Source of the DNA: Pseudomonas wenzhouensis
GTDB lineage: Bacteria; Pseudomonadota; Gammaproteobacteria; Pseudomonadales; Pseudomonadaceae
Direction of reading: 5' to 3'
DNA: 64,000 bases
Assembly (NCBI RefSeq): GCF_021029445.1
Contig: NZ_CP072610.1
Coordinates: forward strand, 1,674,001 to 1,738,000
Numbering within the stretch: the stretch's first letter is position 1; each line of letters begins with the position of its first letter. The notes beneath the pieces are model-generated. The model saw only the letters and a list, made by a program, of their open reading frames with translations, had not been told where the DNA came from and made no database searches. This document shows positions 14,380 through 15,953 of the stretch, piece by piece. The translations under genes and the position numbers were made by a program.

Positions 14380-14385
14380 GCCATC

Positions 14386-14440
14386 GCGGCTGAAGCCCCT
14401 CCCACATGTGACTCGAATCCGTGGGAGGGGCTTTAGCCGC
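14386..14440. repeat. Intergenic palindrome, GGCTGAAGCCCCTCCCAC type
   Basis: GCGGCTGAAGCCCCTCCCAC and GTGGGAGGGGCTTTAGCCGC form a long near-perfect inverted repeat around an 18-bp loop. This is a common Pseudomonas intergenic repeat type and probably doubles as the ttcA terminator. Confidence 0.7.
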
Positions 14441-14445
14441 GCCGC

Positions 14446-14475
14446 TTGCCAGGCCGCAAAGACCTGGAGTATGGT
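14446..14475 (+). promoter_or_regulatory. Candidate sigma-70 promoter for the DAHP synthase leader
   Basis: TTGCCA (14446-14451) and TATGGT (14470-14475) are separated by 18 bp. Transcription would start near 14482, about 18 bases before the first leader ORF and about 410 bases before the DAHP synthase start. Confidence 0.5.
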
Positions 14476-14499
14476 TCGGCCATCGCTTTGGAGAATCTC

Positions 14500-14631
14500 A
14501 TGTCTGCCAGCCTCAACCTTCTGTCCATGCTGCAAGCCGGTGCCTCGCGCGCCGCGTTGGCGCGTGCGCAGTTGGTCGTGGCGGCGGTGTATTACTTCTT
14601 TGGGTATTGGTTTAGCCACAGGCGCGCCTGA
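14500..14631 (+). CDS. Aromatic-rich leader peptide 1 (43 aa)
   Basis: A 43-codon ORF with GGAG 8 bases before its ATG. Near its end it reads VVAAVYYFFGYWFSHRRA: within eight codons there are three Tyr, three Phe and one Trp. It stops 52 bases before a strong intrinsic terminator and lies upstream of DAHP synthase, the first step of aromatic amino acid synthesis. That arrangement is the classical one for ribosome-stalling attenuation, where shortage of Phe, Tyr or Trp would stall the ribosome on these codons. Alternatively it is a real small membrane protein. Its N-terminal part (ASLNLLSMLQAG) is not obviously regulatory. Confidence 0.65.
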   Translation: MSASLNLLSMLQAGASRAALARAQLVVAAVYYFFGYWFSHRRA

Positions 14632-14683
14632 TACCCCACAGGCGGCCTGAGACACCAGGGTCGCCACCAGAGACGTTTTCCAG

Positions 14684-14724
14684 AAAACCCCCGGTCGGCA
14701 ACCCGACCGGGGGTTTTGTTTTTT
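14684..14724 (+). terminator. Attenuator-type terminator before DAHP synthase
   Basis: AAAACCCCCGGTCGG and CCGACCGGGGGTTTT pair perfectly over 15 bp around a 4-base loop, followed by GTTTTTT. It is a strong intrinsic terminator inside the leader. GGGTCGCC at 14658-14665 can pair with GGCAACCC at 14697-14704 (7 of 8), overlapping the terminator arm and loop, so it is a possible antiterminator. GTTTT/AAAAC at 14675-14688 also competes for the first bases of the stem. Confidence 0.8.
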
Positions 14725-14760
14725 CCGGCCGAAAAACGGCCACAGATCGAGGACTCACAG

Positions 14761-14850
14761 ATGAACCGTTATTACCGCAACTACCGCTACGACTGGCGAT
14801 TTAGCAGCGTCACCACCGCCCTGACACCTTTGCCACGAACACTCAGTTAG
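14761..14850 (+). CDS. Tyr-rich leader peptide 2 (29 aa)
   Basis: A 29-codon ORF with GAGG 8 bases before ATG 14761. It begins MNRYYRNYRYDWRF: four Tyr, one Trp and one Phe in the first 14 codons. It ends 44 bases before DAHP synthase; in between, CGCGGT ATCG ACCGCG can form a hairpin just upstream of the AAGGA ribosome site of the synthase. Translation of this peptide could therefore control access to that site. Composition and position are seen; regulation is inferred. Confidence 0.6.
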   Translation: MNRYYRNYRYDWRFSSVTTALTPLPRTLS

Positions 14851-14894
14851 CGCCGCCGCGGTATCGACCGCGCCGGCCAAGGAACCGCCAGATC

Positions 14895-15953
14895 ATGAAC
14901 AGCTCCACTCAACTCGCTTCTACCGTTACCGCTATCGCCCGCCGCAGCGCCCAGCCGCTGCCCAGCCCCGCCGTATTGCGCCAGCGCCTGCCGTTGCCCA
15001 ACGCCCTTGCCGAACGTATTGCCGCCGACCGCGACGCCATCCGCGCCGTGCTCGATGGCCGTGATTCGCGCCTGCTGGTGGTGGTTGGCCCCTGCTCCCT
15101 GCATGACCGCGCCTCGGCGCTCGAATACGCCGAGCGCCTGGCTGAGCTGGCGCCACAGGTCGATGACCAACTGCTGCTGGTGATGCGCGCCTACGTGGAA
15201 AAACCGCGCACCACGGTGGGCTGGAAAGGGCTGCTGTACGATCCGCACCTCGATGGCAGTGGCGACATGGCTGAAGGCCTGCGCCTGTCGCGACAGCTAA
15301 TGCTGGATATCCTTGAGCGTGGTCTGCCGCTGGCCACCGAATTGCTGCAACCGATGGCCGCCGGTTACTTCGACGACCTGCTCGGTTGGGCCGCCATCGG
15401 TGCGCGTACCAGCGAATCGCAGGTGCACCGCGAGATGGTCAGTGGCCTTGATCTGCCGGTGGGGTTCAAGAATGGCACCGATGGCAGCGTCGGCATCGCC
15501 TGTGATGCCATGCGCTCGGCAGCGCATCCGCACCAGCACTTCGGCATCGACGACCTCGGCCATCCGGCGTTGCTGCACACCGCCGGCAACCCGGACACCC
15601 ATCTGGTGCTGCGTGGTGGCCACGGCGCACCGAATCATGATGCTGCCAGCGTCGCCACCGCGCGGCAGGCGCTCGAACGTCAGGGCATCGCCCCGCGCAT
15701 CATGGTCGACTGCAGCCACGCCAACAGCGGCAAGGATCCGCTGCGCCAGCCAGCGGTGCTGGATAATGTGATTGAGCAGCGTCTGGCCGGGGATACCAGC
15801 TTGCGCGGGGTGATGCTGGAGAGTCACCTGTTCGACGGTTGCCAGGCGCTGTCCGGCGAGTTGCGCTACGGCGTATCAGTCACCGATGGCTGCCTTGGCT
15901 GGAGTGGCACCGAGGCAGCTTTGCGCCAGGCTGCCGAGCGGTTGCGTGGATGA
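14895..15953 (+). CDS. 3-deoxy-7-phosphoheptulonate (DAHP) synthase, class I
   Basis: Condenses phosphoenolpyruvate and erythrose 4-phosphate, the first step of the shikimate pathway. The 352-residue product has the class I signatures VVGPCSLHDRASALEYAERL (about 63-82), RAYVEKPRTTVGWKGL, GARTSESQVHREM, VGFKNGTDGS, LVLRGG and VDCSHANSGKD with metal and phosphate ligands. Length matches AroF/AroG/AroH enzymes. The Tyr-heavy second leader hints at the tyrosine-responsive isozyme (AroF type), but feedback specificity cannot be read safely, so I give no symbol. Confidence 0.94.
   Translation: MNSSTQLASTVTAIARRSAQPLPSPAVLRQRLPLPNALAERIAADRDAIRAVLDGRDSRLLVVVGPCSLHDRASALEYAERLAELAPQVDDQLLLVMRAYVEKPRTTVGWKGLLYDPHLDGSGDMAEGLRLSRQLMLDILERGLPLATELLQPMAAGYFDDLLGWAAIGARTSESQVHREMVSGLDLPVGFKNGTDGSVGIACDAMRSAAHPHQHFGIDDLGHPALLHTAGNPDTHLVLRGGHGAPNHDAASVATARQALERQGIAPRIMVDCSHANSGKDPLRQPAVLDNVIEQRLAGDTSLRGVMLESHLFDGCQALSGELRYGVSVTDGCLGWSGTEAALRQAAERLRG

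Follow-up and report, generated by a model that had tools for sequence, protein, structure and literature searches.

Organization of the leader region

The window is the whole stretch of DNA that was analysed, 64,000 nucleotides of the forward strand of Pseudomonas wenzhouensis (NZ_CP072610.1, positions 1,674,001 to 1,738,000). Read directly, it carries in this order ttcA, a pair of promoter-like hexamers, a short leader ORF (ORF1), a strong terminator, a second short leader ORF (ORF2) and the gene of an AroF-like 3-deoxy-7-phosphoheptulonate (DAHP) synthase (Table 1). The promoter, ORF1 with its YYFFGYWF run, the 15-bp terminator and ORF2 (MNRYYRNYRYDWRF), all of them proposed in a first-pass annotation of this DNA, were confirmed at the same coordinates.

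Table 1. Features of the DAHP synthase leader region, in window coordinates
Feature	Position	Strand	Details
Promoter TTGCCA-18-TATGGT	14446..14475	+	direct reading; pattern kept in relatives
ORF1 Shine-Dalgarno (SD) GGAG	14490-14493	+	direct reading
Leader ORF1, 43 aa, C-terminal end YYFFGYWFSHRRA	14500..14631	+	ATG 14500, stop TGA
Rfam RF00627 (Pseudomonas sRNA P15) match, read as attenuator	14589..14713	+	101.8 bits; gathering score 70
ORF1 aromatic codon cluster TAT TAC TTC TTT GGG TAT TGG TTT	14590..14613	+	codons kept in relatives
Hairpin H1	14625..14644 (14625-14630 with 14639-14644)	+	fold, ribosome modelled at the TGG codon
Hairpin H2	14641..14665 (14641-14648 with 14658-14665)	+	fold, ribosome modelled at the ORF1 stop
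Intrinsic terminator, 15 pairs, with T run	14684..14724	+	stem 14684-14717, then GTTTTTT
ORF2 Shine-Dalgarno GAGGA	14749-14753	+	direct reading
Leader ORF2, 29 aa, MNRYYRNYRYDWRFSSVTTALTPLPRTLS	14761..14850	+	ATG 14761, stop TAG
W box TGG CGA TTT AGC, within ORF2	14794..14805	+	conserved in relatives
CGAACAC box (codons CGA ACA C) near ORF2 end	14836..14842	+	seen in relatives
GC hairpin, ORF2 stop to synthase SD	14852..14877	+	window z -1.4; 22/200 shuffles as good; SD region included
Synthase Shine-Dalgarno AAGGA	14879-14883	+	direct reading
DAHP synthase, AroF-like	14895..15953	+	ATG at 14895; NF009395, TIGR00034

The best solved relative of the synthase is the Tyr-sensitive DAHP synthase 6agm, and, judged by its sequence, the named loci closest to it are those of Pseudomonas sp. 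P818, Pseudomonas sp. 8Z, P. composti and P. khazarica (92-95% identity). We take its counterpart in P. aeruginosa to be PA1750. In the available part of one study, the PA1750 protein was found in some of the PrrF1 and PrrH sRNA bait samples, not significantly by the authors' test (PMC4263517). The 500 bases upstream of a paralogous DAHP synthase encoded in the same genome (L111) contain no ORF of at least 8 codons with three aromatic residues in nine.

The TTG...TA promoter pattern is present 5' of ORF1 in 68 of 78 relatives when searched in its looser version, compared with 1.8% of the shuffled segments that served as control, while a stricter version matched 8 of the 78; among the 30 rows listed, the end of the pattern lies 23-26 nt from the ORF1 start codon. 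The gap between ttcA and the promoter is occupied by a long inverted repeat (14382-14443; GCGGCTGAAGCCCCTCCCAC ... GTGGGAGGGGCTTTAGCCGCG), probably a REP-like element or the ttcA terminator, which gives a weak match to an Rfam miRNA family, under the cut-off of that family.

ORF1, the P15 family and the terminator

The predicted ORF1 has what is expected of the leader of an attenuator, namely a conserved short reading frame with a run of codons for the end products of the pathway. A pattern search detected it in 78 of 79 loci; in 75 of these a start preceded by an SD could be located, each time in frame, and the stop codon is TGA in 71 of 78. Over the 117 distinct loci gathered with the pattern TA[TC]TGGTT[TC], the core TAT TGG TTT AGC is strongly preserved at the codon level (TAT in 108, TTT in 114, AGC in 104). 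In the long ORFs of the window, chosen by length and by GC at third positions, TTT makes up 18% of the Phe codons and TAT 31% of the Tyr codons, and the leader therefore favours the less used synonymous codons, as attenuator leaders often do. Part of this preference may serve base pairing, since the Rfam consensus pairs GGGUAU with AUACCC. Both leader peptides and their codon clusters are kept across Pseudomonas and beyond, which is the outcome of the conservation check that the first-pass annotation had proposed.

The 3' half of this leader is already catalogued under another name. The window matches the Rfam family RF00627, P15, along the entire model (positions 1-119 of 119) and with a covariance model score above the gathering score, and the match begins at the aromatic codons of ORF1 and ends within the terminator. 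RF00627 is filed as a gene of the type sRNA; here, we read it as the 3' half of a DAHP synthase leader-peptide attenuator. Since the aromatic codons of ORF1 and the terminator together make up RF00627, P15 is better read as the transcription attenuator of the synthase. P15 was found in 34 of 57 genomes, that of the window included, which divide into 34 of the 36 of the same genus and none of the 21 from other families of the order; it is also present in all 25 genomes of a second, sister genus of the family. Across the class, five of 274 genomes gave matches, again with that of the window included, two of them above the cut-off. A P15-like leader ending MYFYGYWFSRYGV precedes a DAHP synthase in L171, a gammaproteobacterium of another family. 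In its passages on P15, PMC2527527 counts it among the previously confirmed loci and proposes it as a possible riboswitch on the grounds of the synteny that it shares with a TPP riboswitch; a leader-peptide reading was not found in those passages. The terms 'PA1750', 'P15' and 'leader peptide' are absent from the available main text of a P. aeruginosa 3'-end map, which uses PA14 gene numbers (PMC8297930).

An intrinsic terminator lies between the leader and the gene in the window and is present in the 41 aligned sequences. The attenuator region folds with a z of -6.4, a value equalled by none of 200 shuffles and to which the terminator contributes much. Two further hairpins, H1 and H2, precede it: the 5' arm of H1 overlaps the stop codon of ORF1, and in the window fold the two hairpins are mutually exclusive, H2 using the 3' strand of H1. 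When a ribosome was modelled as stalled at TGG, the H2 pairs of the stop state were mostly gone in 20 of the 56 folded sequences, the window and its close relatives included, and mostly retained in the other 36, so in the latter either H1 would need to form first or another mechanism would have to operate. The H1/H2 exchange may thus be taken, as modelled by these folds, as a fair model for the clade of the window.

Beyond these hairpins, the terminator loop of many Halomonadaceae contains GGCAACCC, with which a third strand, GGGTTGCC, can pair; Salinicola L068 shows a compensated pair (GGGCTGCC/GGCAGCCC) for the same two elements. The pairing reaches its full 8 bp in many Halomonadaceae and is interrupted in most Pseudomonas rows, and we infer from this that it could act as an antiterminator, one that would be weaker in Pseudomonas. 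The possible antiterminator of the first-pass annotation thus stands in part: competing hairpins are predicted by folding, while its exact pairing is a proposal drawn from the aligned strands. The transcription attenuation that the same annotation had attributed to ORF1 is backed by the conserved codons, the terminator and the identity with P15, although the switch with ribosome position is predicted in only the 20 of 56 sequences mentioned above; overall, we regard it as very likely.

ORF2, its W box and the adjoining pseudoknot

ORF2 follows the terminator in 75 of the 79 relatives with enough upstream DNA, which belong to the Pseudomonadaceae and Halomonadaceae, and carries in frame the box TGG CGA TTT A(G/C)C (search pattern TGGCG.TTTA). 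The four synthase loci without ORF2 are those of Salinicola (L068-L071), which keep ORF1 and the terminator and in which the synthase starts roughly 40-50 nt past the terminator stem; ORF2 is therefore dispensable for a first stage of control by ORF1. All 30 P15 loci, of which the window is one, have an ORF2 with the W box, and so do all 20 P15 loci of the second genus of the family. Outside these, the L171 leader has a W-box-like TGGCTGTTTATC, but in no SD-started frame, and L173 has no W box in an SD-started frame.

That this is a reading frame is best seen from its start. Taking as the ORF2 start the nearest SD-preceded ATG upstream, chosen regardless of frame, we found it in frame with the W box in all 103 distinct loci, against a chance expectation of one third, and the distance between the two takes 11 different values, all of them multiples of three. 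In the same 103 loci the Arg codon of the box is CGA in 102 and CGC in one, although CGA accounts for 5.4% of the Arg codons in the long ORFs of the window; the fourth codon is AGC in 71, ACC in 30 and AGT in 2, that is, S or T only, and AAC (N) was seen in L146 and L172. The box comes after a set of Tyr codons, between one and five in number and four in 62 of 103 loci, and the stop codon is TAG in 87. Residues 5' of the box vary, and the box is therefore constrained on its own. The residues W-R-F-(S/T) are conserved at a defined site, in 75 of the 79 synthase loci, as would be expected of a putative arrest peptide. ORF2 is real, and it is the less familiar part of the arrangement.

Other properties of ORF2 are less uniform. 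The CGAACAC box is common in Pseudomonadaceae and mostly missing from the Halomonadaceae rows. In the window (14836-14850) and in relatives, ORF2 ends with the less used codons CGA ACA, with AGA in some relatives, and then TAG; its C-terminus in Pseudomonadaceae often reads R-T-(P/L)-x-stop. An ORF2 of 50 aa gave 85 matches in protein collections, named, where names were listed, as hypothetical or uncharacterised, and none of the 85 carries a Pfam domain. Both leaders share TAT TGG (CGA) TTT AGC in some Halomonadaceae (L063, L079), and this likeness suggests a duplication or the same sensing task. The W box was also considered as the motif of a regulon, and rejected for the window's own genome, in which it has one exact copy only.

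In most loci, the box is followed after 5-6 nt by a covarying H-type pseudoknot (75 of 103). It is found in register in 75 of the 77 loci of group A, a group defined mainly by ORF2 length, and in none of the 26 of group B, to which the window belongs. Counted from the T of TGG, helix 1 pairs 18-25 with 41-48 and helix 2 pairs 34-39 with 58-63. In 57 distinct rows, hand-picked from 94, 95.2% of the cells are paired (98.0% in helix 2), and six pairs show changes in both partners. On each of five measures, all 500 shuffles stayed below the observed value, with a control that leaves relatedness in. An earlier set of 41 rows gave a weaker result, the five measures being reached by 21, 0, 35, 214 and 14 of 500 shuffles. 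There is some selection for helix 1 in the 57 rows, since 27 of them (L117-L149) were found with a model that holds seven helix 1 pairs. When the partners were slid by +3, 34 cells changed on both sides, against 23 in the actual structure, and when helix 1 was lengthened by two pairs the share paired fell to 88.4%. A change in helix 2 is compensated in L057 and L059. In L074 and L078 the second strand lies further downstream: L074 has both helices altered, fits neither in register and was left out of the 57 rows, and in L078 helix 2 fits only three columns on. The R1 model matched 8 of 244 genomes of the order and 71 of 121 genomes of a family taken for Halomonadaceae, once per matching genome in both cases.

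How ORF2 would act on the synthase is less evident. Of 78 distinct Pseudomonadaceae segments, 77 have a hairpin that fills the gap from the stop codon of ORF2 to the SD of the synthase; folded sequence by sequence, these hairpins have a mean z of -2.91 and a median energy of -18.35 kcal/mol, and end at most 4 nt from the SD. In several Halomonadaceae (L072, L073, L076, L077, L079, L080), the ORF2 stop adjoins or overlaps the synthase start, within a few bases. Across the modelled states, the accessibility of the synthase SD hardly shifts (0.44, 0.42, 0.41 and 0.36, over 103, 103, 103 and 97 loci), and duplexes with the synthase ribosome-binding site are little or no better than shuffled ones overall and no better in the group of the window. 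Sequestration of the SD by strands of the W box or the pseudoknot was rejected, neither accessibility nor duplex energies showing a consistent effect, and the alternation of a sequestered with a free SD that would mark ORF2 as an erm/cat-type translational attenuator was not seen across the 103 loci; SD pairing appears in single folds of some Halomonadaceae. A complement of the W box, [CT]GCCA, occurs between SD and ATG in 15 of 66 distinct synthase start regions (6/16, 6/41 and 3/9), whereas shuffling predicts about 2; among ORF2 starts, 2 of 82 have it. Most regions are without it. A frameshift from ORF2 into the synthase was likewise rejected, the frame offset being unconserved (40, 36 and 27 of 103); an open alternative ORF2 frame meets that of the synthase in only 18 (+1) and 9 (+2) of 103 loci. 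The suggestion of the first-pass annotation that ORF2 could add translational control is therefore plausible but unproven, the tests of SD accessibility and of duplexes at the ribosome-binding site having been negative.

Proposed serial control by two leaders, and its alternatives

From the sequence, its conservation, the reading frame and the covariation of the pseudoknot, we infer regulation by either leader, the direction of both switches and the route from ORF2 to the synthase. In the first stage, a ribosome would halt 5' of H1 when charged tRNA for Tyr, Trp or Phe runs low; H1 would then form and capture the strand needed by H2, and the third strand (GGGTCGCC), thereby freed, would disturb the terminator, so that RNA polymerase continues. 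A ribosome that gets as far as the ORF1 stop would cover the 5' arm of H1, H2 would form and the terminator would work; the short RNA terminated in this way would correspond to the catalogued sRNA P15. In the second stage, ORF2 would be translated on the read-through mRNA, where its Tyr codons and the TGG CGA TTT box would provide a second stall site, in many species with the pseudoknot at the front of the ribosome, and the progress of the ribosome on ORF2 would set either synthase translation or message survival. We consider it likely that ORF2 is translated and has a regulatory role. As to the whole, two-stage control by aromatic amino acids with ORF1/P15 and ORF2 acting in series, we lean towards it with some reserve. 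The idea that ORF2 is a second aromatic sensor past the terminator, with TGG-CGA-TTT-A(G/C/A)C as a new stall module that often abuts a pseudoknot, is put forward as a possibility, and stalling at the box as its mechanism is equally tentative.

Four alternatives have to be weighed against this. One holds that the W box is a ribosome-arrest sequence, in which the nascent W-R-F and the slow CGA and TTT codons would respond to an excess of aromatic amino acids, or act constitutively, rather than respond to starvation, and in which arrest within ORF2 would reduce synthase translation. The box is indeed kept both as peptide and as codons, in 75 of 79 synthase loci and with CGA in 102 of 103, it is constrained independently of the residues before it, and in group A the pseudoknot begins 5-6 nt past it; however, known arrest peptides usually preserve residues rather than codons, and since W and F belong to the regulated amino acids, simple codon sensing accounts for these two residues as well. 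We regard this alternative as rather unlikely. We give a low probability, in turn, to the reading in which ORF2 only keeps ribosomes on the mRNA, by coupling to the synthase or by protecting a C-rich stretch against Rho, its aromatic codons being secondary. It would leave unexplained the near-invariant 12-nt box and the Tyr codons before it, and the Pseudomonadaceae have a stable hairpin between the end of ORF2 and the SD, although the proximity of ORF2 stop and synthase start in several Halomonadaceae speaks for it. The stretch from the W box, or from the pseudoknot, to the stop is also C-rich and G-poor, in line with this reading, but only moderately so: its median is at the 92nd percentile of local windows over 88 distinct segments, 28 of which reach the 95th.

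A near-invariant 12-nt box with a covarying pseudoknot could belong to a structured RNA, a riboswitch or protein-binding element whose reading frame is incidental; such an element is very improbable in view of the 103 SD-preceded starts, all in frame over 11 distances that are multiples of three, and of the 26 of 103 loci that have the box and no pseudoknot. It is just as improbable that P15 works in trans, as a small RNA on targets of its own: Rfam does name it an sRNA, and it is counted among the confirmed loci cited above, but the match covers the aromatic codons of a conserved ORF and a terminator directly 5' of a DAHP synthase. P15 may nonetheless have an additional role in trans alongside attenuation.

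Control of DAHP synthase by serial leaders would have both familiar and unfamiliar features. The trp, his and pheA operons have ribosome-controlled transcription attenuators, and attenuation of trpE and trpGDC in P. putida was reportedly described by Olekhnovich and Gussin in 2001, a study listed in the references of PMC8297930. As in such amino acid operons, there are here a short ORF rich in end-product codons, predicted competing hairpins and an intrinsic terminator; unlike in them, (i) the ORF1 stop sits in the first hairpin, so that the order is H1 or H2 and then the terminator, and (ii) a further aromatic leader ORF comes after the terminator. The leader of Salmonella mgtCBR, which is not an amino acid synthesis gene and answers to other signals, likewise contains two short ORFs (mgtM and mgtP). 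Among the matches listed, the nearest parallel for a gene with two leader peptides is ermB, with ermBL and ermBL2, as given in the available part of PMC8274638; the plan of two short ORFs that share a leader and act on a single gene is the one proposed here, but control of ermB is by drug-induced translational attenuation of a resistance gene and not by sensing of an end product both before and after an intrinsic terminator. Leader peptides before this synthase in Pseudomonas or Halomonas are not described among the matches listed, in a search that lay mostly outside subscription journals.

With the reading of P15 as an attenuator, an element catalogued as a 'small RNA' gains a likely function. 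This function hints at how entry into the shikimate pathway is governed in pseudomonads and bears on the engineering of aromatic production in Pseudomonas putida. The locus offers a compact and conserved case of serial leader peptides with a strictly kept codon box, often beside a pseudoknot, and codon sensing versus nascent-chain arrest becomes directly testable at ORF2. If the two-stage control holds true, the same metabolites would check DAHP synthase twice in series, at transcription and then at translation or mRNA fate, and this serial double check would be common to the Pseudomonadaceae and Halomonadaceae.
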